Shown in pieces: positions 1 to 33,527 of a stretch of DNA of 64,000 nt (positions within the stretch are counted from its first letter, which is position 1; the number at the start of each line of letters is the position of its first letter). Location of the stretch: NCBI GenBank assembly GCA_037479115.1, contig JBBFLK010000005.1, forward strand, positions 62,001 through 126,000, read 5' to 3'. The notes beneath the pieces were generated by a model. That model made no database searches. It saw only the letters and a list, made by a program, of their open reading frames with translations, and was not told where the DNA came from. The position numbers were made by a program, and so were the translations under genes. The DNA is from Anaerohalosphaeraceae bacterium. Its GTDB lineage: Bacteria; Planctomycetota; Phycisphaerae; Sedimentisphaerales; Anaerohalosphaeraceae.

Positions 1-359
1 TACTGCGTTTTGTACTGGAAGCCGTTGTGAACCCAGCGGTTGGCCGTGGCCAGCTGACGAATCTTTACATTATGCGTCCCCTCAAAGGCACTGCTGGAGG
101 CCGTGGCCGTCAGCATCTCCTCGCTGCTCGTCTTGGCCTGATAGGTGCGCAGCTGGCTCGAATCCGACAAGGCGCTCAGCGCCGTGCGAAACGACGACAG
201 CTTGCTGCTCAAATCGCTCACCGCCGTCCGTTTTTCTTCCAGCGTCTTCAAGCTCGACTGCAGACTGCTTAGACGGCGGCGCTCAATCTTCATCAGCTGC
301 TCCACAATCGCCGCTGTATCAATCCCTGTCGAAAGACCGGTTAATTGGATGGAAGCCAT
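1..359 (-). CDS. fliD: Flagellar hook-associated protein 2 (filament cap), N-terminal part, cut by the window edge
   Basis: Only the first 119 codons are in the window. The N-terminus (MASIQLTGLSTGIDTAAIVE, then QLMKIERRRL and a Leu/Ser-rich coiled coil) is the typical FliD start, in which the conserved GLxSGxD segment precedes the D0 helix. FliD caps the growing filament and guides flagellin polymerisation outside the cell. The ATG at 357-359 is preceded by GAGG at a good distance. It follows the giant glycosyltransferase gene on the same strand but has its own sigma-28 promoter 55-80 bases upstream, as expected for a late flagellar gene. Identity is confident; completeness is unknown. Confidence 0.9.
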   Translation of the reverse strand, partial: MASIQLTGLSTGIDTAAIVEQLMKIERRRLSSLQSSLKTLEEKRTAVSDLSSKLSSFRTALSALSDSSQLRTYQAKTSSEEMLTATASSSAFEGTHNVKIRQLATANRWVHNGFQYKTQ

Positions 360-459: not shown

Positions 460-3400
460 TCACATCTGAAAAACCAGTTCGCGGTCCGGACGCTCTGCTT
501 CCAGCTGGTGGAGGATTTGCTGAAGCATTTGCCGGCTGTCCTCGGACAAATTCAGTGTTTTATCGGACAGCAAATCCCGACATATTCGAACCGCTTGTCG
601 GACATTCTTCTCTTGGATTGCTTCCTGGATGAACTGGAAACCTTCTCGGACCAAAATTTCCGCCCTTTTTCGTCTGTATTTTTCGGCACATTGGGCAAAA
701 AGTTCCCCGTTTCTGTCCGCATAGGTCTCCGCATGTTTTTCAAAAATGGAAACTACATAATCCCAAAAAATCCGCCGGCGTTCATACGCATCGCGCTCCG
801 CCGCCGCAGCGGGACACAGCTGCTCCGGAGAATACCGTTCCAGCATTTCCTCCAGACAGCGAACCGTAATGGAATGACGCTGCTGAAAGCAGACCGTGTT
901 GGCATCAGATAATCTTCGATAGAAATAATCGGAAATCCCCCCGACCATTTGAAACCGTATCTGAGGTCCGCAGCGGCACAGGAAATCAAAATCCTCCACA
1001 TTGTCCAGTTCTCTCAACAGGCCGGTCTTTTCGAACAGGGCCCGCCGCTTCAGCGAGCCGGCATTCGGAATCGGCGAATTGCCCCGGGCAAACAGCAGAG
1101 TCGGAAGAACCGCGGAATTGTTGATTGGTTCATACTTCCACACAATTCCTGTCGGCTGGCCGGCCTCATTGACCAACGTCAGTTTTTCGGGATAATAATA
1201 ATCATATCCCGGATTCTGCACGGCAAAAGCGACCATCCGCTCCAGATAACTCGGCCCGATGAAATCATCCGAATCAATCATCATCACAAAATCGCCGCGG
1301 GCCTCTCGGATTGCCCGATTTGAGGCAGCCGCCGCATTCTTGTGCGGCTGGGAGAAAAATCGGATTCGTCGGTCCCGAAACGACTGCACAGTCTTCGCCG
1401 TGCCGTCTGTACTGCCGTCATCCACAATAATCAGCTCAAAGTTTTCGTAGGTTTGAGCCAAAACGGATTCAATCGCCCGCCGGATGAACCGCTCTGTATT
1501 GTACGCCGTCATACAGATACTCACCAAGGGAGTCGAATCCAGCCGGCAGCACAAGTCAGAAGCCGATGAAGACGAAAGCGGCTCTGATTCTGGTTCAGAC
1601 GCCAACGCATATTGACCGAGAACACCGTCTTTTTTCAGAACAGAGACGACCTGCTGAATCGGGGCGTCTACCGCAAGCCACAAAACGATTTCATTGACTG
1701 TCTGAGAACGAACTGTTGGAGGAACAGCAATCTTCTGAATCAGCAGTTCCCGGTTTTCCCGGAGAAGCCAAACCAAAAACTGAATATGGAAATCCTTCTG
1801 AAGGGCTTCCCGAAGCTTCTGGCCGAATACCTCATTCGGATTCCGTTTCTCCTCGGCGGCTGCCGGCTGACTTCGCCGCCAAAGGGCGTTGATTTTGGCC
1901 CGTCCCCAGTACAGCCACCCGGAAGCAGGCTGATGGCTCCCAAGACTCAGCGAGTTCGGAACCTGGCGGATCAGATACAGCGGCTCCGGAACAAACCAGA
2001 TGCCTGTCACCTCCTCCATCTTATGATAGATATCTTTGTCCTCTGCACTTTCCAGTTCGATATCGTGCAGCGGAGTCCTGAAATAATCCTTCCGTTTGTA
2101 GGTGCGAAATGCGCTGATAAACCCGCCTGCCTCCAGCGTCGTCTGACCGGGAGGAATCGGCCGGCAGAAACCGAGCCTTATCGGCTTCAGGTCCTGGTCG
2201 CAAAGAATATGCTGCGAATAAATAAAACCGCATTCGGGATGCGCCTCGTGGGCCTCGAGCATTCGTTCCAGAGCCGTCGGAAGCAGGGCGTCATCGCTGT
2301 CCAGTTCTCCGAACACCTCAGCCCGAACGGCCGCTGCACCGGTCAAAATCGCCTGCGAGGCCCCCCGCCGAACCGGATGACGAATCAGCCGGATACGCGG
2401 GTCGGACAAATAAGACTCAATGATTTCCACAGAATTGTCTGTGGAGGCATCATCTACAATAATCAATTCCCAATCCGATATCGTCTGAGTCAGAACCGAC
2501 TCGATAGCCTGACGAATATACGGCCCTTTGTTGTAATTGCGCATAATCAGAGAAAACCGAGGTCTGGAACCGTCCAACGGCTTCCGAAGGCTTTCTTTCA
2601 TGCCTGATACAGCGTGTGGGCCTTTGTCCGCTGCCGGGTTCTGAATCCCACCGGCGGTTTCCTCCGATTCCGGCACAAACGGCCGGCGAACGTATCCGCA
2701 GGCATTTGCGTACAGAGCACGAATCAGCTCATCCTCGGCTCTTCCGGCCCCGGAACTGTTTTCAATCCCGTTGGGATTCTGGTAATAGAGCCCCAAAACC
2801 TCCGGCACCAGCATCAGTTTGCGGGTCTGGGAAATCCGCAGGGCAAACTCGTAGTCGCCGGAGGATTTCAGACGGCCGTCAAAATACCCGTATTCCTCAT
2901 GCACATCCCGGCGCCACATCGGCTGCGGTCCGCAGTAATACTTCTTCAGCAGCAGCTCCCGCGAATACGGCGGAAGCTCCATTACCCGAGAGGGCGTCTT
3001 GTTCCGCCAGGTTTGATGGGGAATCTGCGTAATATAAAAATGCGAATACACATAGCTGACATCGGGATTCTGCTCCAGAACCGAGGCCAGTTTTTCCAGC
3101 ATGTCCGGCGCATGGCGGTCATCCGTATTGGCATTGGTAATGTATTTTCCCCGGGCCAGCCGGATTCCCCGATTCCACGCCGCATAAACCGTTTCCCGCT
3201 CTTCCGTACGGACATACCGAATGTTCGGATAGCGGGCCTGAAACTCCTGAACAATCGCTCGTTCGTTCTGCCGGGAACCGCTGTCCACAACAATGATTTC
3301 CATTGCCCCCTTCTGAAAAAGCGTCTGTTCAACCAGGTCCTGCAGACATCCGCGGATGAATTCCTCGCTGTTGTAGGCGGAAACAATCGCGGACACCAGA

Positions 3401-6400
3401 CAGTCCCCGCTGCGCCCGTCGGACAGAGACCGGCCCAGAACATCCTCAATATCCAGACCTTGGAAATACTCCGGCCCGTATTGTTTCAGCCAATCCCGAA
3501 CCTGCCGTTCATACCAGGGATTGGGACGCTGATACACCTTCGGGTCAAAATCGGCATAGTGCCGGAACCACTCGGGGTCCGCCGGTTCCAGATGAAGGTC
3601 CCGTTCATCCTTGCTGGGGGCATAGAGTTTGTTGATCTGGTCCACAGGCTTCTGCGGGTTGCGAATCCGCTCCAGACACCGATACCAGGCCTGCTTCCAA
3701 AGCAGATTGTCCCAGTTGACAAACTGGAAGTGCAGCACGCCATGTGAATACCCCTGGAGGGTTAATTTTCGTCCCCGCAGACTGGAAGGAACGCGCGGCG
3801 TGTGAATAAAATCGGAGGCATACGAACACTGCCCGTCGTCGCAAAAGACAAAGGGCTTGTAGTTGTTTGTCCAGACCGACCCATCCCGGCGATACTGGTG
3901 CGGACTTCGCCACAGAGCAATCCAGTTCATCCACAAGTGGTCTCCGGGCTGCATCGCCAGAATCATGTTCCGCAGACAATTGTCCGTCAGAAAATTGGAG
4001 GTAAAGGCCTCATCGGCATCCAGTACGATAAAATGGGTTCCGCCGATTTCCCGGCCCGCCAGCAGCACCCGGTTTCGGTCGCCCGGTTCATCCCGGAACC
4101 AGCAGTCTTTGGTCAAAATCCGCTCCACCCGGCAGCTTTCCGCCAGACCCCGGACAATCTCCAGCGTCCGGTCTTCGGAACAGTCATCCAGAAAAACAAT
4201 CGCATCCGTAAATTGCGACAGCAGCCGCAGGCATTGGCCGATAATCGGCTCTTCGTTCCGCGCCGTCACCAGCCCCACAATTTTGGGCCTCCGTTCCGCC
4301 GGTTTTTCCAATGCTGCCGCAGGAAGGATGCTCAGGTACGGTCTGATGCGGGGCACGTCCGCCCTGTTTTTCGGCTCCGTACGGTTTGACTTCATCCGGA
4401 AGAGTTCCTGCAGTGAAACAAACTTCAGCCCTTCAAAATAAAAATAATTCTCCGGATTGAAAACAACCTCGTCGAGCGGCTTTTGATGATACACGGCGGC
4501 CTTGTTGTAACTTTCCAGCCGGCAGGAAGCTTTTGCCGGCAGAGCCTCATATCCCACATGCAGATAATCAATATCCCGTGCCGGCCGGATTCCATAGGCC
4601 GCCATCACCGAACTTCCGTCAATGCAGAAGCACTCCGGGTCGGCACCGCTTTGCTCCAGAAGCGTCCGATATTCCTGCAGCTGACGGTGAAACGATTCAA
4701 AATACACCGTTTCCGCATGATTCAGAAAATGGAGGCTGTTCTCGTTAAAACACAGGCCCGCCAGCCGAAGGGTTTCTTCATAGGAGTCATTAATATGAAC
4801 CGCATCTTTATTCGAACCGAACAGCTCTCGAATCTCCTGCTTGCAGCTCCGAACCGCCTCCGGAGAATCCGCTTCAATCAGATACACCCGAAGCGGTCCC
4901 CTTCCGCGAAAACAGTTGACGGCCTTGTCCTGATATCCCCGAAAACCGTCGGACGGACTGCCGGTCCAGTGTTCACCCAAATAGGCATGTTTGATATAGA
5001 AAAACGGTCCGTTTTTCCTCAGAACAAGCTCTTTTCGATACACAAGCCGAGCATACCGGCACAGAATGGAAACAATCTCCTCCTCCCGACCCTCGGCACA
5101 GGGAAAGACGGATACAATGTATGTGTTTTTTTTGATTTTGCAGTATTCATAAGCCATTGCATCCGCATACTTGGGCTCCAGTCCCCGCTGCAGAAACCAT
5201 GCATAATTGTATCGGGAGGCCGGACGGTCAAAAACGGCCGTGTACACATCCTGTCCGGTCAGGTAAGCCGCCGCAACCCGATGGCTTCCGTCGATAATCG
5301 TCCCGTTCTGATCGACCGGAAGCAGCGAGCGCGTCGGGTCAAACCCCTCCGCCGCTAAAGACTCCAGCAGAGAATCATACCGTCTTAAAAAGGCCTCAGG
5401 GCCCGCCTTGCCGGACCCGTCTTCTTCCAAAAAGTTGTTGAAAACCTTCAGATGAGCCAGATAAACCCGCCGACCCCAGTCGCTTTTCAGCCGCTGCCGA
5501 TAAAACCGCCCATAAAGAATTTTGGCTGTCAGGTCAAACCGCTCGGCACAAACCAGCGCAGACGGGGAAAGACGCTGCTTTTTCACAAGCCCTTGCTCCG
5601 GAAGATATCCGATTCGAAACAGATGCGGGTTGAGCTGAGAACGAATACTTTCAATCCGGACGAAAGACTCGTCGATAGGTTTCGTCTGCACAAGCCGTTC
5701 ATTCAGCCAGAAGGCGTTGCCGCTGCCGTTTCCGAATTTATGGTCCAGCCCGATTCCGCCCAGCACAAACCCCCGCCCGGCCAGAAAACCTTCCAGGTCA
5801 ATCAGTCTGGCCTGTCCTTCATACAGTGCGGCATACAGCCACACTTCCAGAAACAAAATGCTGCAGTTGGCCAGAACCCGCCTGGCCCCGCGCAGCACCG
5901 ACAATTCCGCCCCCTGGACAGCGCACCACAGCAGGTCCACCGGCTTGTTTTTCAGCGGCTCAAACTCATCCAGCCGAATGCACTCCACCGGAAATGTTTC
6001 CTGAGAGCGAATGCCGAACTGCTCGGCTATTTCCTGTCCGAAATCTCCGCGGCAGCCGGACCGAAGCGGCAAAAGAGAACCCGTCCCCGGCAGATTGTTT
6101 TCATAAAAAACCATCGTCCCCTTCCGGTCGGAAACCGCAAAGGGATAACAGTGAACCCGCTGCTCGGAGCGGTATCGCTGCTGGAGCAGGGCAAACGTCC
6201 TCGGATTCGGCTCAAAGGCAAAGATTTCCGCACGGGGATAACGCCGCAGAAATCGCTCGATTTCCTGCCCCAGATAGGCCCCCACAATCACCATCCGCAA
6301 AGGAGCATCCTGCGGCTTGCCGATCAGAGAGCACAAATTCTCTTCGACATCCTCCTGAATTTCCTGATACGGCTCTTTCCGCTGTCCTGTATAATTTTTT

Positions 6401-7605
6401 GCGGACGCTCCGCCCTGAATCGGCTGAATGTCGGCAAAAAAAAGATCCTGCCGATTATCCCAAATCAGACTGTATCCATGCGAAGAAACATACCGAAGAA
6501 TGTCCTGCCGCTGCGAGCCGTACTCCACAACAATCAGCTGCGGCCTGTATTTCCTGAAATCCAGTCCCTGCAGCACCTCCAAGTCATGCCCTTCGGTATC
6601 GATGGAAAGCAGCGCCACATCCTCCAGCCCCTGTTCTTCCAGAATCTCCGTAAGGGTTTTGGCTTCAACCGTTTCCTTCCTCCAGCGGGCTCCATAGGCC
6701 TTCGTCCAGCGGTCCCTCTGCGAACCGTCCAGCGAAGCCACATCGCTGCCCCAGTCCGGCAGATGCGGGTACTCCGACACGTACAGCTGGGCCGTTCCGC
6801 TCCGACTGGATACGGCCGCCCGAATACACCGCACATCCCAGCCCAGCCAGGCCCGTCGAAGTTTCTCAAAATTGGCCTCTGCCGGCTCAATGCACAGCCC
6901 CGCCCAGCCGTGCCGTTCCGCCAGCCGCCGGACATTGCTGTAGTGAATGCCGTCAAATGCTCCCACCTCCACAAACACCTTGCACCGGGGCCTTCGCTCC
7001 GCAAAATACCGTTCTATCAGTTCATCCTGACCATTCTGGGCATAATAACCGCGCAGATGCTTGGGCAGTTCCCGGGCATACCAGAATTCCGGATTCAGCG
7101 CCAGCACCGTCCTGCAGGCCGCTTCTGCCGCCTCTGTCCGGCCCAGCTTTGCCGCCGCCAGCGCCATCAGCCAAAAATATCTCCAGTTCCTCGGGGATTC
7201 AGCCGCCAAATCAGAAGCCGCGCTCAGGAGATGCTCAAACAGACAGGACGGATAAACCCGCAGGCATGGGTCCTGAAGAATGCGAACGGCCTCTTCTGTG
7301 CGGTTCCGAAGGTAGTCCGAGAAATCTCCTGTCTTTCCCTGCACGGAGGACACCCAGACGTAAAAAAAAGCGATCTGGGCATTGGACGGCTCCAGCCGAG
7401 CCGCCGTCTCCAGGGCCGTCCGGGCCTCCTTTAGTTGGTTTTTGAGCAGAAAAGCCCGGCCCAGCGAAAAAAAGGCAAAGGCATCCGCGGGCTCCGCCTG
7501 CAGACGGGCCGCACACTCCCGACAGACAGAATCCGCCTCTCCCCGAGCAAGATGCTGTTCAACCTTTTCTTTCCAGTCCGTTGGAATAGACAAAGCTGTT
7601 TTCAT
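460..7605 (-). CDS. Giant multidomain protein: TPR, two FkbM-type methyltransferases, ParB/Srx-like and nucleotidyltransferase-like region, four GT2 glycosyltransferases
   Basis: A 2381-residue protein. Visible modules in order: TPR-like helices (about 15-190); FkbM-type SAM methyltransferase (about 200-400, VFVEVGAFDG); second methyltransferase-like module (about 435-630, MVIVGAYLGQE); a ParB/sulfiredoxin-like segment with DGSHR near 770; a nucleotidyltransferase-like segment near 995-1080 (GSSVMAAYGIRPARDIDYL); then four GT2 domains starting near 1106, 1402, 1682 and 2027. All four GT2 modules keep an acidic motif (LDADE, NTDDRH, DSDDALL, DSDDF). No signal peptide or membrane segment is seen, so it is probably cytoplasmic. 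Its position between flagellar chaperone-like and fliD genes suggests it builds a complex methylated glycan on flagellin or hook proteins; this is inference. The ATG has GGGA upstream. An assembly fusion is unlikely because the frame is open throughout. Confidence 0.85.
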   Translation of the reverse strand: MKTALSIPTDWKEKVEQHLARGEADSVCRECAARLQAEPADAFAFFSLGRAFLLKNQLKEARTALETAARLEPSNAQIAFFYVWVSSVQGKTGDFSDYLRNRTEEAVRILQDPCLRVYPSCLFEHLLSAASDLAAESPRNWRYFWLMALAAAKLGRTEAAEAACRTVLALNPEFWYARELPKHLRGYYAQNGQDELIERYFAERRPRCKVFVEVGAFDGIHYSNVRRLAERHGWAGLCIEPAEANFEKLRRAWLGWDVRCIRAAVSSRSGTAQLYVSEYPHLPDWGSDVASLDGSQRDRWTKAYGARWRKETVEAKTLTEILEEQGLEDVALLSIDTEGHDLEVLQGLDFRKYRPQLIVVEYGSQRQDILRYVSSHGYSLIWDNRQDLFFADIQPIQGGASAKNYTGQRKEPYQEIQEDVEENLCSLIGKPQDAPLRMVIVGAYLGQEIERFLRRYPRAEIFAFEPNPRTFALLQQRYRSEQRVHCYPFAVSDRKGTMVFYENNLPGTGSLLPLRSGCRGDFGQEIAEQFGIRSQETFPVECIRLDEFEPLKNKPVDLLWCAVQGAELSVLRGARRVLANCSILFLEVWLYAALYEGQARLIDLEGFLAGRGFVLGGIGLDHKFGNGSGNAFWLNERLVQTKPIDESFVRIESIRSQLNPHLFRIGYLPEQGLVKKQRLSPSALVCAERFDLTAKILYGRFYRQRLKSDWGRRVYLAHLKVFNNFLEEDGSGKAGPEAFLRRYDSLLESLAAEGFDPTRSLLPVDQNGTIIDGSHRVAAAYLTGQDVYTAVFDRPASRYNYAWFLQRGLEPKYADAMAYEYCKIKKNTYIVSVFPCAEGREEEIVSILCRYARLVYRKELVLRKNGPFFYIKHAYLGEHWTGSPSDGFRGYQDKAVNCFRGRGPLRVYLIEADSPEAVRSCKQEIRELFGSNKDAVHINDSYEETLRLAGLCFNENSLHFLNHAETVYFESFHRQLQEYRTLLEQSGADPECFCIDGSSVMAAYGIRPARDIDYLHVGYEALPAKASCRLESYNKAAVYHQKPLDEVVFNPENYFYFEGLKFVSLQELFRMKSNRTEPKNRADVPRIRPYLSILPAAALEKPAERRPKIVGLVTARNEEPIIGQCLRLLSQFTDAIVFLDDCSEDRTLEIVRGLAESCRVERILTKDCWFRDEPGDRNRVLLAGREIGGTHFIVLDADEAFTSNFLTDNCLRNMILAMQPGDHLWMNWIALWRSPHQYRRDGSVWTNNYKPFVFCDDGQCSYASDFIHTPRVPSSLRGRKLTLQGYSHGVLHFQFVNWDNLLWKQAWYRCLERIRNPQKPVDQINKLYAPSKDERDLHLEPADPEWFRHYADFDPKVYQRPNPWYERQVRDWLKQYGPEYFQGLDIEDVLGRSLSDGRSGDCLVSAIVSAYNSEEFIRGCLQDLVEQTLFQKGAMEIIVVDSGSRQNERAIVQEFQARYPNIRYVRTEERETVYAAWNRGIRLARGKYITNANTDDRHAPDMLEKLASVLEQNPDVSYVYSHFYITQIPHQTWRNKTPSRVMELPPYSRELLLKKYYCGPQPMWRRDVHEEYGYFDGRLKSSGDYEFALRISQTRKLMLVPEVLGLYYQNPNGIENSSGAGRAEDELIRALYANACGYVRRPFVPESEETAGGIQNPAADKGPHAVSGMKESLRKPLDGSRPRFSLIMRNYNKGPYIRQAIESVLTQTISDWELIIVDDASTDNSVEIIESYLSDPRIRLIRHPVRRGASQAILTGAAAVRAEVFGELDSDDALLPTALERMLEAHEAHPECGFIYSQHILCDQDLKPIRLGFCRPIPPGQTTLEAGGFISAFRTYKRKDYFRTPLHDIELESAEDKDIYHKMEEVTGIWFVPEPLYLIRQVPNSLSLGSHQPASGWLYWGRAKINALWRRSQPAAAEEKRNPNEVFGQKLREALQKDFHIQFLVWLLRENRELLIQKIAVPPTVRSQTVNEIVLWLAVDAPIQQVVSVLKKDGVLGQYALASEPESEPLSSSSASDLCCRLDSTPLVSICMTAYNTERFIRRAIESVLAQTYENFELIIVDDGSTDGTAKTVQSFRDRRIRFFSQPHKNAAAASNRAIREARGDFVMMIDSDDFIGPSYLERMVAFAVQNPGYDYYYPEKLTLVNEAGQPTGIVWKYEPINNSAVLPTLLFARGNSPIPNAGSLKRRALFEKTGLLRELDNVEDFDFLCRCGPQIRFQMVGGISDYFYRRLSDANTVCFQQRHSITVRCLEEMLERYSPEQLCPAAAAERDAYERRRIFWDYVVSIFEKHAETYADRNGELFAQCAEKYRRKRAEILVREGFQFIQEAIQEKNVRQAVRICRDLLSDKTLNLSEDSRQMLQQILHQLEAERPDRELVFQM

Positions 7606-7650: not shown

Positions 7651-7995
7651 TTATTTTCCATAAGCCGACAGCGTCCGAATCCCCTCCCGAATCTGCCGCA
7701 GTTTGTCCGCCACCTCCTGCCGTTCGGCGGCAATCACCAGACAGATGTCCTGATACAGTCCCTGGATTGTCTGCCTGCAGGCCGCATATTCAGGCCGCTC
7801 CAGAATCCCTTCTCCGGCAAGCTGTTCGGCAAACCGATGCGATTCCTCCGCCAGCTGAACCGCCCCATCCAGGTCATATCGGCGCAGCTTCTCCAGCTGC
7901 CGCTCCAGCAGCTCGGTCAAATAGGCCAGCTTTTGCCGGTCTTCTGTCGTCCCCTCGGCCGCCCGAGTCTCCGGTAACTCCGTCGTTTTGTTCAT
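7651..7995 (-). CDS. Small helical FliT/FlgN-like flagellar export chaperone (putative)
   Basis: 114 residues, almost entirely charged and helical, with a heptad-like Leu pattern (ELLERQLEKLRRYDLDGAV) and a C-terminus KLRQIREGIRTLSAYGK. That ending resembles small flagellar chaperones of the FliT/FlgN type, which bind late export substrates in the cytoplasm. No enzyme motif is present. Its ATG overlaps the stop of the TPR gene upstream (ATGA), so the two are probably translationally coupled. It lies between the glycosylation genes and fliD, and FliT normally binds FliD. A true FlgN candidate exists separately at 17707. Family assignment is by context and general pattern only. Confidence 0.5.
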   Translation of the reverse strand: MNKTTELPETRAAEGTTEDRQKLAYLTELLERQLEKLRRYDLDGAVQLAEESHRFAEQLAGEGILERPEYAACRQTIQGLYQDICLVIAAERQEVADKLRQIREGIRTLSAYGK

Positions 7996-8621
7996 CGCTC
8001 ATTCCCGCCTTTCTGTTGGGCCTTGTGCTCCAGTTCCTCCAGCAGCTGCCGGGCATCGGCATGCTCCGGTTCCAGCGCCAGAACATCCCTCAGCAGCTCC
8101 TGAGCCTGCCGTATTTGGCCTTCCTTTGCATACAGTGCCGCCAGACAGAACATCACGGATGTGTCTCCCGGATGCATCTGCAGATACACCTGCAGATAGT
8201 GGATGACCTGGCGAAACGTCCCCATCTGGCAGGACACCTGAAAGAGCCCCAGCAGCGCCGTCAGATGATTGTTGTCCAGTTCCAGACTCTTCAGATAATA
8301 CTCAAACGCCTCCTGCAGCCGTCCGCACTGCTGGGCAATCATCGCCAGTCCCGCCCAGGCCCGGCTGTTGCACGCATCCAGCCGAAGCGCCACGCGAAAC
8401 GCCAGTTCGGCATCCTCCAGCCGCCCCTGCTGCAGTTCAATCACACCGGTGCCCACATACGGCCCCGCCTCATCCGGCTCCAGCCACGAGGCCTGTTCAT
8501 AACATCGGCGGGCATTCTCATATTCGCCCACCGAGGCATAACAGTCTCCCAGTTCCTTGACAATCTCATACCGCTGCATCCATCCCTGGTCGGGATTCTG
8601 CAATGCACCCGCTAAATCCAT
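7992..8621 (-). CDS. TPR-repeat protein of the flagellar glycosylation island
   Basis: 209 residues made of about five tetratricopeptide repeats, e.g. GDCYASVGEYENARRCYEQA, then units ending in LEPDEA, LDACNSR and LEPEHAD. The open frame extends upstream to 8912, but that part overlaps the GT2 gene and has no coding character. The ATG at 8619-8621 has a strong AGGAGA site and is chosen as start. It overlaps the end of the GT2 gene by 10 bases and the next gene by four. TPRs are protein-binding scaffolds. The neighbours suggest it organises glycosyltransferases or their flagellar substrates; no catalytic motif is seen. Confidence 0.8.
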   Translation of the reverse strand: MDLAGALQNPDQGWMQRYEIVKELGDCYASVGEYENARRCYEQASWLEPDEAGPYVGTGVIELQQGRLEDAELAFRVALRLDACNSRAWAGLAMIAQQCGRLQEAFEYYLKSLELDNNHLTALLGLFQVSCQMGTFRQVIHYLQVYLQMHPGDTSVMFCLAALYAKEGQIRQAQELLRDVLALEPEHADARQLLEELEHKAQQKGGNER

Positions 8622-10267
8622 AGTCGGCTCTCCTGGCTTGACAGCACCGGCTCGTCGGCGGCCGGCTTGGCTGCTCTTCGTCGAATTGCTGAAGTCTGCG
8701 TTTTTCTCGCCTCCGTTCCATCCAAAATCCGGCAGGCGCGCTGGTAGCAGTCCATCGCCCGCCGGTAATCCTTTTGCTCCTGAAAGATGCGGGCGGCCAG
8801 CTGCAGGGTAAAAACCGTCGGCCGGGCTGTCTGCACCGGCTCGAGCACCTCCAGCGCCTGCCGAAAACGCCCCGCTTTGTACAGGGCATACGCCTGCTGG
8901 GTCCGCATCCACAGCTCATTCCCGAAATGCTCCGCCAGATAGGCATACAGGGAAGCGGCGGATTCCCATCCCCCCTCCCGCTGAAGCTGTTCTGCCGCCG
9001 CCAGCATCCGGTCAAACTGAAACGGGTAGTCCTCCGTCTTCGGCCTGCGAATCGAAAAGCCGGCCGCCTCCAGCGACGCCCGCAAAGGCAAACGGCCGTA
9101 CTGCCGACGGGCCTGCCGAAGCTCCTCTGTGCGGAAAACCGCCCCCCAGCAGTCTTCGGTCGCTTCCACCAGCTCAAACGCCTCCCGGGGCTGTCGGCTG
9201 TTCAGCAGCGGACAGAGGGAGCGTTCCAGCCATGCCGTTTCATCCATCTCCGCCGAAAGACCGGTCGGGACCACTGCGGCATACGTCCCTTCGCAAACCG
9301 ACAGCATTCGGTCCAGACGCGCTTCGAGAGAGCTGCCCGCTTCCGCCGGCACAATCGTCACATTGGGAACCAGCGTACGCCATCCGGCGGCCTCCTCCGG
9401 CGCCAGCGCTGCATAAATCCGCTGCGGATAAAAGGTATGCGACCACAAGTCCCGAAGCGTCCGATCCAGCAACTCATCCGCACGAGCCGCCAAAATCAGA
9501 ACCGACAAATCCTCCACGCACGGCCACGGCTTGGGCGGACGCGTCGTCCGGATGGTCAGCACATTTCGAAGATAATCCGAGACATTTTTCCGTCGCCGAA
9601 CGGAAATCCGGTCGCTGTCGCCGACCGGTGTATAGTACTCCCCCGTAATCGTCGGAATATGAAGGAAATCCGTATAAAAACACAGTTTTCGATGCAAATC
9701 CCAGTCTATCAGGACATTGAGATTTTCGTTGTATCCCCCCGCCCGCTCCAGCAGTTCCTTGCGATGCAGAATGCTCACATGAAGCACATGATTAAACTGA
9801 AGCATCATCATCCGGTCAAAATCCCGTGAGACCTCCACGTGCTTGGCAAGCACAATGCGCCGCCCGTCCGGCCTGACGCGGCAGTACACCTTGTACAAAT
9901 CGCTGTACACCGCCCCGCAGCGGTCCTGGCTTTCAATCGCCTCAACCAGCGTCTCCAGATGATGCGGGTAATACTTATCATCGTCATCCAGATGACACAG
10001 ATACTCTCCGCGGGCATAGCCCAGCGCCTCATTGAACGAATACCCCGGCCCGCGGTTTTCCGCACGGTTGATAAAGGTCAGCCGGCGGTCTGAAAACCGC
10101 CGCACCACCTCATCCACCGGACAGCCCCCGTCCCGAACCAGCACAATCTGAAAGTGCGGCCAGGTCTGAGCAAACACGCTTTCCAGCGCCTCGGCCAGAT
10201 AGCCGGGCCGGTTGTACGTGTTCATCAGAACCGTCACCAGCGGACCATGTGAAGAACGTCGAGCCAT
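8612..10267 (-). CDS. GT2 glycosyltransferase with C-terminal TPR repeats
   Basis: 551 residues. Residues 8-230 form a GT-A family 2 domain: VTVLMNTYNRPGYL at the start, IVLVRDGG as first acidic motif and HLDDDD near 113 as the metal/nucleotide-sugar site. A middle region (about 250-430) looks like a second, degenerate glycosyltransferase-like or linker domain. Residues 430-520 hold TPR-like repeats (AAEQLQREGGWESAASLYAYL; ALYKAGRFRQALEVLEPV). GT2 enzymes transfer sugars from NDP-donors in the cytoplasm. It lies 7 bases after the GT9-like gene in the flagellar glycosylation run, so flagellin or hook-protein glycosylation is the likely role. Confidence 0.85.
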   Translation of the reverse strand: MARRSSHGPLVTVLMNTYNRPGYLAEALESVFAQTWPHFQIVLVRDGGCPVDEVVRRFSDRRLTFINRAENRGPGYSFNEALGYARGEYLCHLDDDDKYYPHHLETLVEAIESQDRCGAVYSDLYKVYCRVRPDGRRIVLAKHVEVSRDFDRMMMLQFNHVLHVSILHRKELLERAGGYNENLNVLIDWDLHRKLCFYTDFLHIPTITGEYYTPVGDSDRISVRRRKNVSDYLRNVLTIRTTRPPKPWPCVEDLSVLILAARADELLDRTLRDLWSHTFYPQRIYAALAPEEAAGWRTLVPNVTIVPAEAGSSLEARLDRMLSVCEGTYAAVVPTGLSAEMDETAWLERSLCPLLNSRQPREAFELVEATEDCWGAVFRTEELRQARRQYGRLPLRASLEAAGFSIRRPKTEDYPFQFDRMLAAAEQLQREGGWESAASLYAYLAEHFGNELWMRTQQAYALYKAGRFRQALEVLEPVQTARPTVFTLQLAARIFQEQKDYRRAMDCYQRACRILDGTEARKTQTSAIRRRAAKPAADEPVLSSQESRLWI

Positions 10268-10274
10268 CCCTGTC

Positions 10275-11174
10275 TTACGAAACAGATTCTTCAGCGGGCT
10301 TCTCCTTCGCCCAGGAAATCTTCAGCCGTTCCGCCGCCTCCAGCACCTCCTGCGGCTGAGCCGGACAAACCGACACCATTCCGCTGCCTTCCTTCATCGG
10401 CCAGCAGTCCCAGGAATTCTTTCCCAGATACACCATCGGCAGGTGAATCGCCGCCGCCAGCGCCGCAATCTCCTCATCCTCGCTGATCAGCAGTTCACAC
10501 TGCCGAAGAACCGTTGCAATCTCACGGGCCGTCAGCTTGCCGCGAAGGTCCTTGGCCTCCGGAGCCGCCGGACCGCTGCCTCCGCCCACATACACAAGAC
10601 TGCCCCCCCATTTTTCTCTCAGCAGACGCCCCACTTCGGCTCCCTGAGACGACAGCCAGCTCGGACAGTCCGCCGAAATCGGCGCCAGCACAATACGCGG
10701 ACGGGCCAGTTTCGACAGGCCGAACCGCTGGGACCGGACAAAATCAAAACTATTTAAAAGGATTTGAGGCGTCTGCTGCTCCAGACGCACGCCCAGCTGT
10801 CCTGCCGCATCAAACATCCAGTCCATACCGGCTCCTTTCCGCGGTGCACCCCGCAGGTATATCACCTTGTCAAACGATTCCTTCAGCTCTCCGGCATCGC
10901 CGTAGGCCAGACTCCGTACCCCGGGATGCCCGATGTATAAATCCGCATATTCATGGCAGATGGTAATTTCCTGCTCCGAGGCAAACGTCTGGCCGAACAG
11001 ACGAATCGCCGGTTCAGCCAACAGGGCCGCCAGCAGCCCCGCCGGCGGCACAACCAGCACCCTGCGAAGGGCCCGCTCGGAACCCGCCGGTCCGTCTGAC
11101 CGGCTCGGCGGCTCCGCCGACAAAGCAGATGTTTCCGCTAAAAAGGGGCCGCAGAAGGACTCCTTCCCGAACAC
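10275..11174 (-). CDS. GT9/heptosyltransferase-like protein (putative)
   Basis: 299 residues. The C-terminal half resembles the ADP-heptose/GT9 acceptor fold: PRIVLAPISADCPSW, then GGSLVYVGGG, LTAREIATVLRQCELLISEDEEIAALAAAIHLPMVYLGKN, the usual pattern in which an acidic loop meets an LA...PVV..G strand. The first 30 residues are low complexity. The start is a GTG (11172-11174) lying inside the end of the preceding GT gene (37-base overlap). Ribosome-site support is weak, so an internal start such as the GTG before LVVPPAGLL is possible. It sits between two TPR-glycosyltransferases in the flagellar island. Family assignment is moderate; substrate unknown. Confidence 0.55.
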   Translation of the reverse strand: MFGKESFCGPFLAETSALSAEPPSRSDGPAGSERALRRVLVVPPAGLLAALLAEPAIRLFGQTFASEQEITICHEYADLYIGHPGVRSLAYGDAGELKESFDKVIYLRGAPRKGAGMDWMFDAAGQLGVRLEQQTPQILLNSFDFVRSQRFGLSKLARPRIVLAPISADCPSWLSSQGAEVGRLLREKWGGSLVYVGGGSGPAAPEAKDLRGKLTAREIATVLRQCELLISEDEEIAALAAAIHLPMVYLGKNSWDCWPMKEGSGMVSVCPAQPQEVLEAAERLKISWAKEKPAEESVS

Positions 11175-12820
11175 GAGCAGACCGCCTCGGTTTCTTCCGA
11201 TGAAGCCGACTTTCCCGAATTCTTCAGCCGCTGCGCCGCCTCCAGTGCCCTGTGGGCCAGTTCCTCAATCGAAGCCGAGACGGCCGGCTGCGAACCAGCC
11301 GCCGCCGGTTCCGACGGCTGCAGACGGTCGGAAATCGGAGAAGAAACAGAGACCGCCGGCTCCAGCGGTCTGGATGCAGCGGCCTGCACAGAGCCCGGCA
11401 TCGGCGAGCCGCTTCCTGCTCCGCTCGAAACAAAAAGCCGGCTGCGTTCCAGCTCCGAAAGAATCCGAACCAGCGGTAAATACGCCTGGATTGGGGAGAA
11501 GCGGTCGAGCACCCAGGTGCGGTAGCGCATCGGTTCATACGCCCCTTCCAGAATCTGCCGGCAGAAATCTTCCGCCAGAACAAATACAAACTCCTTCTCC
11601 ACATATTCGCACACACCCGGGAAATGGTGAACAACCGGACGCAGCCCCGCCGCCATCCCCTGAAGAACCGACGGCATCGACCGACCGTCCACCGACGCCG
11701 ATACGATGTAATGCTTATCCTTCAGCCACCGGGCCCAGCTGCGGGGAACTCCGTCCAGAAAAACGACATTCTCCAGCCCCATCGCCTCAATCAGCGATTC
11801 GACATAAGCCCGCACGCTCTCATCCTCAAATTCTCCGGCCAGGTGAAGCCGCATATCCGCATCCAGATAATGGAGCTTCTGCATACAATGAAGCAGAAAC
11901 ATCGGATTCTGATGAGCCGTCCACGGTCCGACGGCCGCCAGCCGTTTGCCCTTTCGGCGTTCGGCAAATACAACTGTCTCGGCATCCACACCCGGTCCCA
12001 TCGTCAAAAGCTGCACGGAGGAAGGAAAACCGCCCAAACGCAGGCGAATCTGCTCTGCCGCCGATTGGGAAGGAACCAAAACGGCACGAACCCCCGCCCA
12101 GTCTATCCGCTCCAGCGCCGGATGATTCAGGTCCTCATAGTCCAGAACCAGCACCGCCGGGATGTCCCGATGCCGTTCATCCAGAAAGGCCCGGCTGATG
12201 CCGGTGAAAATTGAAATACTCCGCGAATGCCCTCCCTCCGGCACCGCAGGCATCGTCCCGCCGGTACACACTGACAGCGGATACCGAGCCTCCAGATATC
12301 CCCGAAGGCCTTCCAGACGCCGCTGCTGCTCGGCATACAGACAAATCGAAACCCGTTTGCTGCGGATAATTTCAATCATCGGACGAAGGATTTCCTGATT
12401 CGGAGCCAGCCGCAGCGAATACAGAAGCATTTCGATCGCGGGCCCCAGCGAACCCTTATCCACGAAACAATTCGCTATCCGATTCAGTATATCCACATTC
12501 AGAATCTCTCGGTCCGCCATCTCATCCAGCAGTCCGACGGCCTTTTCCGGCTGATGCTCGGCGATATAGGCCTCACACAGATTAAAAAGAACCTGGGTGA
12601 GCATGTCACCGCTGCAAAGACTGCGAGCCTTCTGAAAGTACTCGATTGCCTCGCGGCCCCGATGCAGACAGTACAAAATCGTACCGGCGTCATTGAGGGC
12701 TTCCGCATCATTCGGCTGCTCCCTCAAAAATCCCTGCAGAAGCCCCAAAGCCTGCTCAAAACGCCCTTGTTCGGCCAGTTCTGCGGCCTGCCTGACCGCT
12801 TGTCTATCGTGTCCAGACAT
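11138..12820 (-). CDS. TPR-GT4 glycosyltransferase fusion
   Basis: 560 residues. The N-terminus (about 1-150) has TPR units (AAELAEQGRFEQALGLLQGF; EAIEYFQKARSLC; PEKAVGLLDEM). A GT-B, GT4-like domain follows (about 160-450), with AVGPWTAHQNPMFLLHCM and GENVVFLDG-type strands and the ending SASVDGRSMPSVLQGMAAGLRPVVHHF, the acceptor-proximal E/S-x7-E region in a weakened form. The last 110 residues are Ser/Ala/Pro-rich and disordered. The frame extends to a TTG at 12835, but the ATG at 12818-12820 has GAGGAG at the right distance and is chosen. It is a paralogue of the neighbour at 12973-14421. Likely adds sugars to flagellar proteins. Confidence 0.8.
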   Translation of the reverse strand: MSGHDRQAVRQAAELAEQGRFEQALGLLQGFLREQPNDAEALNDAGTILYCLHRGREAIEYFQKARSLCSGDMLTQVLFNLCEAYIAEHQPEKAVGLLDEMADREILNVDILNRIANCFVDKGSLGPAIEMLLYSLRLAPNQEILRPMIEIIRSKRVSICLYAEQQRRLEGLRGYLEARYPLSVCTGGTMPAVPEGGHSRSISIFTGISRAFLDERHRDIPAVLVLDYEDLNHPALERIDWAGVRAVLVPSQSAAEQIRLRLGGFPSSVQLLTMGPGVDAETVVFAERRKGKRLAAVGPWTAHQNPMFLLHCMQKLHYLDADMRLHLAGEFEDESVRAYVESLIEAMGLENVVFLDGVPRSWARWLKDKHYIVSASVDGRSMPSVLQGMAAGLRPVVHHFPGVCEYVEKEFVFVLAEDFCRQILEGAYEPMRYRTWVLDRFSPIQAYLPLVRILSELERSRLFVSSGAGSGSPMPGSVQAAASRPLEPAVSVSSPISDRLQPSEPAAAGSQPAVSASIEELAHRALEAAQRLKNSGKSASSEETEAVCSCSGRSPSAAPF

Positions 12821-12972
12821 CTTCAAACTCCTCAAAGAGGTTGTTAATCCGCATCCATATCACCGGTTGTGCAAATCCTATGCCCGACTTCAAAATCGCC
12901 TTTTTTGGACGAAAACAAACCCATTTCCCGCCCTTTGAACCGACCCTTTGTCAAATCTTCGAACACCCTCCT
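12821..12972 (-). other. Gap of 150 bases between the two TPR-GT4 genes
   Basis: This is the longest gap inside the flagellar run before fliD. I see no good sigma-28, sigma-54 or sigma-70 promoter and no hairpin with a T-run. The ribosome site of the downstream gene (GAGGAG) lies at its end. It could be a decayed intergenic remnant or hold a weak internal promoter. Confidence 0.4.
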
Positions 12973-14421
12973 TCAAATCAAAACAGGTTCAGCCGAAACG
13001 TCCTGTCGCTGCCCTTCAAACCGGCCCTGTTCGAAGGAGCTGAGCAATTCATCCACGAGGCGAAGCGTCCGATTTATCGGATATCGCCTCTCTACATACT
13101 CCCGATAGGTATATGGTTCATAATCGTCCGATAATATCTGCTGGCAAAACTCTTCGGGTGTCGTAAACAGACAATTCTTGTCGTAAATCTCGTCGGCCCC
13201 GGGGAAATGATAAATCACCGGTTTCAGGCCGGCCGCCATCGCCTCCAGCGCCCCCATCCCCTGACTTTCAATCACACTGGTCACCGCCAGATAATGCTTG
13301 TCGGCAAGCCAGGAAAAAATATCCTCCTGCCAGCCTTCAAAATGAACCACCCCTTCCAGACCCAAAAGCCGAATTTGATGCTCCAAATACTGTTTCAAAA
13401 GCAAATCATCCATTCGTCCGGCCATGTAGAGCTGATACTCCGGGTCGATCTCATGCAGCTGATACATACACTGGAGCAGAAACATCGGGTTCTTAACCAT
13501 TCGGAGATTCGCCACAAAGGCAATCTTTTTCCCCCGCTCCCGCCGGACAAACGGTATCTTGTCCACATCAATTCCATTGGGAATCCGGACAATCGCCACC
13601 TGTTTTCGAATATCGGGCACCCACTCTTCGAGGGCCTTTATCACATACGAATTCCCGACCGTAACCAGCACATCCACATTCGGCCAGTGAATCTGTTTGG
13701 GCCAGGGCATATAGGCTTCATAGCGATGCAGCCGAACCACAATTCGGCAGCTCTTGGGCAAATGCGTGCCGATCTGGGCCAGATTCGTCGCCCACTCAAA
13801 CCAGGAAATATCGCTCCAATTCATCAAAGCCTGCACGTCCTCCGGACGGGAACCGCTGAAAACCCGAACCGGATAACGCGGCTGGAGATAGTCCAGAAGC
13901 GGCTTGAGAAATGTCGGACCGTCCGCTCCGCAGAAGAAGGCCAGCTTGGGCCGGCAGGCCTTCAGCTGTTCAATCGGTGCCTCATAAATCAGCGGATTTT
14001 TGGATGTGCTGCGGCCCATTTGAAAGAGATCCATCGCACGAGCCGGCTGATGCTGACGGAGAAAACAGCCCGCTGCTTCCAGAACCGCCGAATCGCGCCA
14101 GACGCCCTCCTGCCGCATCCGACGAAGCAGACCGGCAGCCTGGTCCGGACGATTCAGCTTCAGCCAGACCTCCGCCAGGTCGGCCAGGGCCTCTTTCGGA
14201 CCGTCCAGCAGAGAAAGACACCGCTGAAAACACCGAACCGCCTGACGAGAATCCCCTTCCGCCATCGCCAGGCGGCCCGCCAGATGCCAGCCCGGTCCGA
14301 AGGAGGGACGCAGCCGCAAATAGGAATCCAGGCAGGAGCGGGCGGCGGAGATGTGTCCCTCCTTCGCCAGATGCACCGCCTTCTGATACAGTCGAGTCGG
14401 AGATTCTGTTTCTACTGACAC
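12973..14421 (-). CDS. TPR-GT4 glycosyltransferase fusion, paralogue of the downstream gene
   Basis: 482 residues. TPR-like repeats cover about 8-150 (KAVHLAKEGHISAARSCLDS; QAVRCFQRCLSLL). A GT4-like GT-B domain covers about 155-460: FANLRMVKNPMFLLQCMYQL, AGRMDDLLLKQYL, VVHFEGW, and VTSVIESQGMGALEAMAAGLKPVIYHFPG. The last segment contains the conserved Glu-rich E-x7-E donor site (ESQGMGALE). The start is a GTG (14419-14421) with AAAGGA upstream. It comes 14 bases after flgL on the same strand, so it is likely co-transcribed with the hook-associated proteins. Its donor site looks intact, unlike that of its paralogue at 11138-12820. Confidence 0.85.
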   Translation of the reverse strand: MSVETESPTRLYQKAVHLAKEGHISAARSCLDSYLRLRPSFGPGWHLAGRLAMAEGDSRQAVRCFQRCLSLLDGPKEALADLAEVWLKLNRPDQAAGLLRRMRQEGVWRDSAVLEAAGCFLRQHQPARAMDLFQMGRSTSKNPLIYEAPIEQLKACRPKLAFFCGADGPTFLKPLLDYLQPRYPVRVFSGSRPEDVQALMNWSDISWFEWATNLAQIGTHLPKSCRIVVRLHRYEAYMPWPKQIHWPNVDVLVTVGNSYVIKALEEWVPDIRKQVAIVRIPNGIDVDKIPFVRRERGKKIAFVANLRMVKNPMFLLQCMYQLHEIDPEYQLYMAGRMDDLLLKQYLEHQIRLLGLEGVVHFEGWQEDIFSWLADKHYLAVTSVIESQGMGALEAMAAGLKPVIYHFPGADEIYDKNCLFTTPEEFCQQILSDDYEPYTYREYVERRYPINRTLRLVDELLSSFEQGRFEGQRQDVSAEPVLI

Positions 14422-14435: not shown

Positions 14436-15623
14436 CTATTTCAGAAAATCCAGCAAAGAGGTCGAGAAAATCTTGGAAGCCGCCGTCAGCGACATCTCAT
14501 ACAAAAGCTGATGACGCGCCAAATCTATCGACAGCTGCGTTATATCTGCATCCAGCAGGCGGCTGATTTCATCCTCCGAATTGACTTTCATATCCTCCAT
14601 ACTGTCTTTGAGGTTCGTGAGCGTTTCAATCCGCCCTCCGATAATCGGAAACGAGCGAACCAGCTTCTCTTCCACCTCCTGCATCGAAACCAGCGTCGCC
14701 CCCAGCAGATTCTCCAGCGTTTTGTCGTCCAGGTTCTGCGAATTGTTCAGCAAATCGCGGGCGGAAATCAGAATATTGAAAATGTCATAGGTACCGGGGA
14801 CACGAACCGGCTCTGTTCCTGTCTGCCGAATTTCGCTGACATCCACATACAGAACCTCTCCGGTCCGGGAATGAATGACCGCCGCATTGGTTTCCGTTCC
14901 GCTGACCGTCACCCAGGAAGCCCCTCCGTCAATGGAGAGCTGCCAGCTGCCCGGCCCTCCCTCCACCGTCAGATACAAATCCCCGCGGACGCTCGACGTG
15001 CCGCTGCCCGCCTTGGCGCCGGTGGACCCGTAAAAAACGGGTGTCTGGCGGCTGTCATCCCGAAACAGGCGATCCCCCACCAGCAGGGCCGAAATCTCCA
15101 TCCCGTCAATCACCTCCACCTTCTGCTCCTCCTGGCTGCCCTGATAAATCACCCGGACAATCCGGCCGTTTCCGTCCCGTTCGACAGCATACGGCGCCTG
15201 CTCGGCCTTTGCCCCTCCGAACAGATACTGACTGAGTCGGGTGGAGTTGGCGAACGAAATGACCTGTTCGAGTGCGTTGTTGATTTCGGCCGCCAGCGTG
15301 CGCCGAACCTGGGAACTCGTCGTGCCCGACATCGTGGACGCCAGCGAAGCACGAGCGTTGGCCATCTCCTTCATCATACTCTGCACCACGGAGGAGCTCA
15401 GGTCCAGAATGCTGATGGCCTCCCCCATGGTTTTGACATACACCTCTTTCTTCCGTTTGTCGGTCTGAAAACCGAGAATCTGGTTGGCCCGGCTCGGGTC
15501 ATCCGATATCCGGTTCAAATCCTGACCCGTGGCGGCCTTCTGCTGAAGAATATTCAGCTTTTCTGAATGCCGCGTGACGGCCCAATAGGTTGTCTTGAAT
15601 ATCGATTCGAGGGAATAACTCAT
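14436..15623 (-). CDS. flgL: Flagellar hook-associated protein 3 (hook-filament junction)
   Basis: 395 residues with the FlgL/flagellin-type N-terminal D0 helix: YWAVTRHSEKLNILQQKAATGQ, then RISDDPSRANQ. This is the conserved S..kl..l..q.asG..i...sDdP segment. The C-terminal helix (DLARHQLLYEMSLTAASKIFSTSLLDFLK) is the matching D0 partner. FlgL and FlgK form the junction between hook and filament and are exported by the flagellar type III system. It lies 26 bases after flgK and leads directly into the glycosylation genes. Length is at the upper end for the family because of a variable middle domain (about 150-290). Confidence 0.92.
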   Translation of the reverse strand: MSYSLESIFKTTYWAVTRHSEKLNILQQKAATGQDLNRISDDPSRANQILGFQTDKRKKEVYVKTMGEAISILDLSSSVVQSMMKEMANARASLASTMSGTTSSQVRRTLAAEINNALEQVISFANSTRLSQYLFGGAKAEQAPYAVERDGNGRIVRVIYQGSQEEQKVEVIDGMEISALLVGDRLFRDDSRQTPVFYGSTGAKAGSGTSSVRGDLYLTVEGGPGSWQLSIDGGASWVTVSGTETNAAVIHSRTGEVLYVDVSEIRQTGTEPVRVPGTYDIFNILISARDLLNNSQNLDDKTLENLLGATLVSMQEVEEKLVRSFPIIGGRIETLTNLKDSMEDMKVNSEDEISRLLDADITQLSIDLARHQLLYEMSLTAASKIFSTSLLDFLK

Positions 15624-15649
15624 CCGGACATCTCCTCTGTCAGGCCCTT

Positions 15650-17677: not shown

Positions 17678-17706
17678 AGGTTCCGTCCCTTTCGGTGTCT
17701 GTCTGG

Positions 17707-18216
17707 TTATCCCTGGGCACTCATCAGCCCCGACGAAATGACTCCGCCTGAACGGCCGTGCGCATCATACAGACGGCCCTGCCCCCGAGAGCCGGTCAGA
17801 ACTTCCAGCATCTGCCGATTCAGCCGGGCGTACTCCCGCACCAGCAGCTCCGTCGCCAGATGCTGCCGGCGAAGCCGCTCTGTCAGGTCCTTCAGGCGAC
17901 TCTGCCGCTCCTGCAGCTGTTTCCGCTGCATCGGTTCCGCCCGCTGCCCAATCGCCGACAGACAGACTTCCTCCGCCCGGCATCCGAGCACAGCGGCAAA
18001 CCGTTCCGTCAGCCGGCGGCGGTGCCTTTCCATCTCCGCCCATAGCCGTCCTTCCTCCTCCAGCTGTCCCTGCATCCGCTCCAGCGCCGCCGTGTCCCGG
18101 CGTATCAGGCAACTGCGAAACGCATCCAGAAACGCCAGAACCCGCTCCAGCACCTGTTCCTGACGGTCCAGATAGGCCAGCAGCTCATCGATCCACTCTG
18201 GGCTGATTGTGTTCAT
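17707..18216 (-). CDS. flgN: FlgN-type flagellar export chaperone
   Basis: 169 residues, nearly all alpha-helical with long charged heptads (ERVLAFLDAFRSCLIRRDTA; LKDLTERLRRQHLATELLV). The C-terminal 30 residues are Gly-rich and flexible. This is the FlgN family pattern; FlgN keeps FlgK and FlgL unfolded in the cytoplasm before export. The ATG overlaps the stop of flgJ (ATGA), and flgK follows after 29 bases, the usual flgN-flgK-flgL order. Sequence similarity in this family is weak, so the call leans on the gene order. Confidence 0.75.
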   Translation of the reverse strand: MNTISPEWIDELLAYLDRQEQVLERVLAFLDAFRSCLIRRDTAALERMQGQLEEEGRLWAEMERHRRRLTERFAAVLGCRAEEVCLSAIGQRAEPMQRKQLQERQSRLKDLTERLRRQHLATELLVREYARLNRQMLEVLTGSRGQGRLYDAHGRSGGVISSGLMSAQG

Positions 18217-18608
18217 AGTCTCTCATCCAATCGCATCACGCCGGCGGCATCCGAAGCGGCCTGAGCAGACGCCGGCCCAGTCCACTGGCGAACCATTTCT
18301 TTCCAGTAGCCCACCCCGCCTTCGCGTGTAATCTGCTCTCCCAGAAACATCCAAAACAGGCTTTGAATCTGCTCCCCGAAAGCGGCTTCTTCGCCTTCGT
18401 CTTCCTCGTCGGCCTTCAGGGCTTCCGTGGCCTCTTTCATCTGCTTGAAAATCTGCTGGAGCAGAATTCCTTCAAACTGTTTGGCCGCCTCCTGGATCTC
18501 TCGGGTTTGTCCGGCGGATTCCTGCCGTGTTCCCAGACGCTCCGCCGCCGTCAGGGACGGCAAGGAAGCAGACGGCATCAGGGGCTCGAGGGGAAGGTCC
18601 GCCGCCAT
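18213..18608 (-). CDS. flgJ: Rod-binding (rod-capping) protein, FlgJ N-terminal domain type
   Basis: 131 residues. The core EAAKQFEGILLQQIFKQMKE is the conserved rod-binding motif of FlgJ, followed by a short acidic stretch and QIQSLFWMFLGEQITREGG. It lacks the C-terminal muramidase domain of enterobacterial FlgJ, as is common outside gammaproteobacteria, so peptidoglycan cutting would need another enzyme. The ATG at 18606-18608 has GGAG eight bases upstream and overlaps the flgI stop (TGATG); a GTG one codon earlier is an alternative. It acts in the periplasm as cap for rod assembly. Confidence 0.85.
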   Translation of the reverse strand: MAADLPLEPLMPSASLPSLTAAERLGTRQESAGQTREIQEAAKQFEGILLQQIFKQMKEATEALKADEEDEGEEAAFGEQIQSLFWMFLGEQITREGGVGYWKEMVRQWTGPASAQAASDAAGVMRLDERL

Positions 18609-21362: not shown

Positions 21363-21377
21363 CTCACCTGTTTGCGA

Positions 21378-22160: not shown

Positions 22161-22174
22161 AATTGATTCTCCTT

Positions 22175-24117: not shown

Positions 24118-24134
24118 TAGGCCTTTTTCCTTTT

Positions 24135-25859: not shown

Positions 25860-25877
25860 ATGAGTACTCCTTGTGGA

Positions 25878-28141: not shown

Positions 28142-28174
28142 ACACACCGGCCGTCCGATTGCTCCGTCAAAAAA

Positions 28175-29406: not shown

Positions 29407-29415
29407 CCTGATTTC

Positions 29416-33445: not shown

Positions 33446-33448
33446 AGC

Positions 33449-33465
33449 TTCCGATTATATCGGAA
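33449..33465 (-). promoter_or_regulatory. Palindrome overlapping a -10 box directly upstream of rarA
   Basis: TTCCGATTATATCGGAA is a perfect 7-3-7 palindrome 3 bases from the rarA ATG. On the minus strand it contains TATAAT, with TAGACT 16 bases upstream as a weak -35. Transcription would then start within a few bases of the ATG, giving a nearly leaderless message. It may equally be an operator or a hairpin that hides the ribosome site. Confidence 0.45.
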
Positions 33466-33478
33466 ACAGAGAAAAAGT

Positions 33479-33527
33479 CTATTTTCTTTCATCCGAACGG
33501 GCAAGGAGAACCTGAAAGAAAAAATAG
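33479..33527. terminator. AT-rich inverted repeat between rarA and the GGDEF gene
   Basis: CTATTTTCTTTCA (33479-33491) pairs with TGAAAGAAAAAATAG (33513-33527) apart from a two-base bulge. It lies 15 bases after the stop of the minus-strand GGDEF gene. It could act as its terminator, although the stem is AT-rich. Confidence 0.4.

Follow-up and report, generated by a model that had tools for sequence, protein, structure and literature searches.

Beside fliD, the flagellar cap gene, an uncultured planctomycete encodes a 2381-residue protein that probably, as a single piece, both assembles and decorates a sugar chain of the flagellum. One open reading frame joins an N-terminal TPR region, two FkbM methyltransferases, a central module that we call M and four GT2 domains, and M is apparently an enzyme family so far undescribed. 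In the window, by which we mean the whole stretch of 64,000 nucleotides analysed, the frame occupies 460..7605 on the minus strand, the strand of all features whose window coordinates are written below with two dots, with its ATG at 7605, its stop at 460 and no internal stop. An earlier note on this DNA had described this uninterrupted frame and placed it in a flagellar locus, and both readings are borne out: the 5' part of fliD (1..359; Pfam FliD_N; 42-94% identity in relatives) lies immediately downstream, about 100 bp from the end of the giant gene, and flgL, flgK and flgN (14436..18216) lie upstream. Along the gene strand, the order is flgN, flgK, flgL, two TPR proteins with GT4-type glycosyltransferases (11138..14421), an ORF without a Pfam match, a GT2-TPR protein (8612..10267), a TPR protein (7992..8609), a 110-aa ORF (7651..7983), the giant gene and fliD. 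A 299-aa ORF at 10275-11174, with no Pfam or NCBIfam match, adjoins the GT2-TPR gene in the genus, where its identity is 68-98%. Farther along, positions 18608-34615 hold more flagellar genes, for FlgI, FlgA and a hook protein of FlgE type, followed by genes for a RarA-like AAA ATPase and a diguanylate cyclase.

A second species of the genus (G004, an uncultured Phycisphaerae, contig CALEDR010000030.1) encodes an alignable 2381-residue protein, again without a stop, at 87% identity, and its counterpart of the 110-aa ORF is 96% identical. For the giant proteins of the two species, dS is 0.37, dN is 0.071 and dN/dS is 0.19 over the whole alignment, and each module taken separately gives a dN/dS of 0.10-0.43. 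In relatives, two or three ORFs, some with an overlap of about 15 nt, often cover the equivalent region, which would suit the idea, raised in the earlier note as a way to be proved wrong, that the frame is an assembly join of several genes, or else a decaying fusion of them. We give that idea almost no weight; because a fusion of the same length and architecture is intact in two species and every module is under purifying selection, an assembly join is ruled out and the reading as a whole is refuted.

The domains on either side of M are conventional, and Pfam and local HMMs agree on their borders. The TPR region (aa 1-205; 6991..7605) matches TPR_2, TPR_1 and TPR_8, with TPR_2 at aa 42-75 and in a second stretch. 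PF05050 (Methyltransf_21/FkbM) scores 125.9 bits against a cut-off of 22.7 in two stretches, which correspond to methyltransferase 1 (MT1; aa 210-382; 6460..6978; PF05050 at aa 213-379) and methyltransferase 2 (MT2; aa 437-616; 5758..6297; TIGR01444 at aa 441-589), each of which is also found by our own HMM. PF00535 (Glycos_transf_2) scores 357.9 bits over the whole protein against a curated cut-off of 23.3, in four stretches that begin near aa 1111, 1405, 1685 and 2029. The translation retains an acidic motif in all four copies: VLDADE in GT2a (aa 1105-1400; 3406..4293; PF00535/PF13704), NANTDD in GT2b (aa 1401-1650; 2656..3405), ELDSDD in GT2c (aa 1675-1915; 1861..2583) and MIDSDD in GT2d (aa 2021-2320; 646..1545). 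The TPRs, paired methyltransferases and four GT2 domains that the earlier note had read directly from the letters are thus all found by Pfam. A C-terminal tail (aa 2321-2381; 463..645) ends the protein. The Pfam matches of the whole protein include neither a Maf domain nor a TagF-like glycerophosphotransferase domain.

Comparison with relatives places the giant protein in a class of large, variable, multi-glycosyltransferase proteins encoded directly upstream of fliD. We mapped the locus by blastp of each domain against 20 relative loci, which were chosen by GT2 similarity. Relatives' proteins upstream of fliD contain counterparts of GT2b, GT2c, the linker, GT2d and the tail: besides G004, GT2b is 53-72% identical in six relatives and GT2c 47-65% in four, GT2d is 45-71% identical in many relatives, and the conserved end that includes the tail (aa 2280-2381) reaches up to 61% besides G004. 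Weak TPR and FkbM matches aside, these 20 loci contain nothing close by blastp to the TPR region, MT1, MT2, M or GT2a outside G004, and GT2a has no match at E 1e-3 in the 19 besides G004. In their place relatives carry GT9, NKWYS, other methyltransferase families, GT4 and TPR, on proteins of 638 to 2657 aa directly upstream of fliD and adjoining ORFs of up to 3085 aa. The same order beside fliD in other genomes, which the earlier note had suggested looking for, is present in G004, and the fronts of other relatives differ; we found the exact order in two species only, and M itself in 2 of the 118 relatives searched. At the fliD locus, by these comparisons, the first ~1400 residues are exchangeable and the GT2b-d tail is conserved among relatives.

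The ORF adjoining fliD bears at least one GT2 in all 20 of these GT2-selected loci and in one further genome (G028). A search that started instead from fliD, which was found in 45 of 59 genomes, revealed ten newly examined relatives with no GT2 at fliD (G050, G054, G010, G044, G025, G011, G035, G049, G053 and G057); their loci hold only ORFs sized like FlgN, FlgK, FlgL, a TPR protein and a small ORF. A similar locus lies on a short contig of G008, and four distant genomes also have no GT2 there. ORFs sized like the 110-aa ORF adjoin fliD in relatives without glycosyltransferase genes. Since compact loci without GT2 occur in at least ten relatives, the glycosylation genes are an optional, variable insertion in the flagellar cluster.

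M spans aa 664-1101 (4303..5616) and is a three-domain family without a database name. It has no confident match in Pfam, NCBIfam, PHROG or PDB sequences; the middle 470 residues match no Pfam or NCBIfam family and gave only weak, chance-level matches elsewhere, and weak matches to Spt5-NGN and phrog_21990 were set aside. An AlphaFold2 model built from 54 sequences has a pLDDT of 93.3 and a pTM of 0.92, against a pLDDT of 37 for a model from two sequences. The earlier note had seen in this region two segments, one like ParB/sulfiredoxin and one like a nucleotidyltransferase. Both belong to a single colinear module of three domains; a domain with a nucleoside diphosphate kinase (NDK) fold, which the note had missed, lies between them.

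The ParB/Srx-like domain (aa ~688-803; 5197..5544) is indicated by profile-profile comparison, invariant residues and weak structural matches. In hhalign, M against ParB_N gives E 8.7e-5 and a probability of 60, compared with at most 3.4 for column shuffles, and the P-motif G773-S-H775-R776 (GxxR), part of DGSHR at aa 772-776, aligns on GERR of ParB. Within this motif, G773 is conserved in 53 of 54 sequences and H775 and R776 in all 54. The model's BFVD matches to phage ParB/Srx proteins have probabilities of 0.96-0.99 with weak E values of 0.05-0.15, and none of six members of the M family matches Pfam ParB_N at E 10. In ParB-fold proteins the P-motif arginine is required for nucleotide binding, and in domain fusions the fold recurs as a module that binds nucleotide (Kaljevic et al. 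2025, PMC12704722). These fusions include the free-serine kinase SerK and have the GxxR P-motif in common with M; M is not assignable to SerK, the likeness drawn in the earlier note.

The NDK-fold domain (aa ~824-955; 4741..5136) emerged from structure. Over model residues 163-291 the structure is closest, among PDB entries, to nucleoside diphosphate kinases (VIA Z 12.0, rmsd 2.7, 117 aligned); the VIA matches listed are of NDK type only and cover aa 824-955, and the absence of ParB or NTase folds among them does not count against those domains. Model His274 (aa 937) and Asp277 (D940) are invariant in 54 of 54 sequences, and by the start and end offsets of the matches His274 falls on His117 of E. 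coli NDK and His118 of human NDK-B, the catalytic-histidine positions of these enzymes. The surrounding motif, VHINDS/T, is like the IHGSDS of NDKs, and model Pro172 falls at the position of NDK Pro13. The lysine of the NDK KPD motif has no equivalent, its Lys12 position being Phe in 52 of 54 sequences, and the alignment contains no Kpn loop between the K/R helix and the histidine. Pfam NDK (PF00334) matches no M family member, and profile-profile comparison of this part with the NDK family (probability 0.2) is no better than shuffles, so it is the fold and the position of the histidine that support the NDK claim. Because the Lys12 equivalent and the Kpn loop are missing, the domain is not a normal NDK and might serve as a scaffold only.

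The NTase-like domain (aa ~963-1093; 4327..4719) carries G997-S998-x12-D1011-I-D1013, in keeping with the signature hG[GS]x(9-13)Dh[DE]h: S998, D1011 and D1013 are invariant in all 54 sequences, and position 997 is G or A in 50. No third carboxylate was found in M, the candidate strand reading S-H-N in most members. The region also has a C-terminal K..R.E.KD..D motif. A weak hhalign match to AbiEii (probability 1.8, against at most 0.4 for shuffles) is suggestive of a resemblance at the profile level.

Most of the homologues of M that we found are viral: about 70 distinct viral proteins (71 counted), besides three on plasmids and one in a planctomycete. The M profile covered one scan of genome contigs and part of one phylum. 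Searching GenBank phages by tblastn returned no homologue, and a nucleotide search with two viral M loci gave no useful relative. By tblastn, colinear relatives occur on plasmids of Ilyobacter and Jannaschia as separate genes of ~490 aa within exopolysaccharide clusters, and Paracoccus has a shorter relative in such a cluster; a profile made from these and the planctomycete homologue led to the many environmental viral contigs. Among the 71 viral proteins, 15 are fused behind a GT2 and another 15 have a GT2 gene immediately upstream; further neighbours encode an RXYLT1-like protein, a sulfotransferase and a GT10-like protein. Over its full length, the M model matches BFVD structures of three giant-virus proteins, A0A1V0SAX2, A0A5K0UAL1 and A0A481Z0W0 (Catovirus, Yasminevirus and Mimivirus LCMiAC01), of which two are annotated as glycosyltransferases. 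Judged from these sequences, the ParB-like, NDK-fold and NTase-like domains travel together as one mobile module. In the viral proteins L104-L115, which are ~180-230 aa long, the likeness to M is limited to its ParB-like front, and the four tested have no Pfam match. In L153 (6001-8106), a 702-aa viral protein matches the M profile twice (1-413 and 403-698), perhaps through a partial second copy.

Four clusters with M also bear aminoethylphosphonate genes. In the distant planctomycete G157, whose single homologue came from the profile search, M follows genes for a PEP mutase with cytidylyltransferase, a TPP enzyme and an NTP_transf_3 with class V aminotransferase, a set that amounts to a CMP-aminoethylphosphonate-type pathway. 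The GT2-M fusions of the viral loci L147, L161 and L164 have genes homologous to those for PEP mutase, phosphonopyruvate decarboxylase and AEP transaminase in their vicinity, with a cytidylyltransferase adjoining these in L147 and L164. The decarboxylase is split in all three viral sets. A family at 14 viral loci that had been taken for a cytidylyltransferase is for the most part a cupin, which L147 has fused to a cytidylyltransferase. Published phosphonate clusters of the CMP-AEP kind encode LicD-like phosphotransferases or glycosyltransferases (PMC6697681). Phosphonyl tailoring (PntC, LicD-like transferases; PMC6697681) is among the closest known systems: M occurs in four CMP-AEP-type clusters that need a glycan-transfer step, but it is not LicD by Pfam, and the window genome has no match to the G157 PEP-mutase protein. 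A phosphonate is therefore not a general substrate of M. From this gene association, a role for M in phospho- or phosphono-transfer is plausible.

The account that we favour, and hold to be somewhat more probable than its negation, is that the giant protein is a swappable fused glycan assembly enzyme in which M activates or transfers a phospho- or phosphono-group. The four GT2 sites would add sugars sequentially, the two FkbM sites would O-methylate them and M would place a phosphate-linked group on the chain. Within M, the ParB/Srx-like part may bind nucleotide through its GxHR P-motif, the NDK-fold part may move a phosphoryl group through its invariant histidine and the NTase-like part (GS...DxD) may activate or transfer a phospho- or phosphono-compound. 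The acceptor would most likely be a protein of the filament or cap, or a hook-associated one, handled at the fliD locus, and the exchangeable front could give each species its own glycan. Modules and context agree with the general idea, already voiced in the earlier note, of a single chain that builds and methylates a glycan, and its guess at phospho-decoration has gained from the NDK fold between the ParB and NTase signals and from the four aminoethylphosphonate clusters. The acceptor and the chemistry of M, which we infer, are the weakest links. The window genome has flagellin-type genes on contigs C29, C8 and C16 (open frames of 276, 297 and 276 aa), and as these lie apart from the giant gene, position alone does not settle the acceptor.

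The same fused enzyme could also work differently. M might only make or regulate a donor: a ParB/SerK-like kinase plus nucleotidyltransferase would yield a free nucleotide-activated small molecule for use by a GT2, with the NDK fold as a nucleotide-binding scaffold devoid of phospho-histidine chemistry. Such a role would fit the way M is fused or closely linked to one GT2, the kinship of all three domains to nucleotide-binding folds and the loss of Lys12 and the Kpn loop; strict invariance of His937 and Asp940, however, is hard to explain in a mere scaffold, and we consider this alternative unlikely. Alternatively, the protein might build a cell-surface polysaccharide or other glycoconjugate and sit beside fliD by chance of insertion, a view that draws on the exopolysaccharide clusters in which M is found elsewhere and on the ten or more relatives whose fliD has no adjoining GT2 gene. 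Yet a same-strand, GT2-bearing gene lies directly upstream of fliD in 21 genomes including that of the window, and the window and close relatives have further glycosyltransferase genes in the interval from flgL to fliD, which makes this view quite improbable.

We found nothing in the literature on this module combination or on planctomycete flagellin glycosylation. Some O-antigen enzymes of ABC-transporter-dependent systems carry several catalytic modules (PMC11231755), and we know of no M module among them. Their glycan-building modules are combined in varied arrangements, several per polypeptide, as in the giant protein, but for O-antigen and not at a flagellar locus. In C. difficile (Type A) and P. 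aeruginosa PAO1 (b-type), flagellin is known to be glycosylated through GT2, methyl and phospho steps (PMC10714395, PMC11833859). Like the giant protein's set, C. difficile 630 CD0240-CD0244 and PAO1 PA1088-PA1091 combine glycosyltransferase, methyltransferase and phospho-transfer for flagellin, and FgtA (PA1091) of PAO1 even has GT2 and phosphotransferase on one protein (PMC11833859, PMC10714395). Their phospho step, however, uses a TagF-like CDP-glycerophosphotransferase and separate PSP-like and nucleotidyltransferase proteins, whereas the giant protein has no such Pfam domain, has a different domain set in M and places six catalytic domains plus M on one chain. It goes much further than the two-step sharing of PAO1. 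The main text of the survey of ParB-CTPase-fold fusions (Kaljevic et al. 2025, PMC12704722) mentions neither glycosyltransferases, FkbM nor flagella, and M scores nothing in Pfam ParB_N.

If the favoured account of a fused assembly enzyme is true, a single chain would embody a large part of the plan by which a flagellar glycan is built, and setting species side by side would show such plans being rearranged by module swaps inside a reading frame. More tentatively, and with less than even confidence, we suggest that M represents an undescribed class of glycan phospho- or phosphono-transferase, composed of three folds that handle nucleotides (ParB/Srx, NDK and NTase), in bacteria and in environmental and giant viruses, and that the fliD locus of these planctomycetes is a hot spot where module swaps in giant frames alter the flagellar glycan. 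On the favoured account, too, the M family offers a candidate, open to test, for a glycan-modifying step that is missing from viral and bacterial clusters, several of them for aminoethylphosphonate, and would explain what is done by a gene that occurs in dozens of environmental viruses and is nameless in the libraries consulted.
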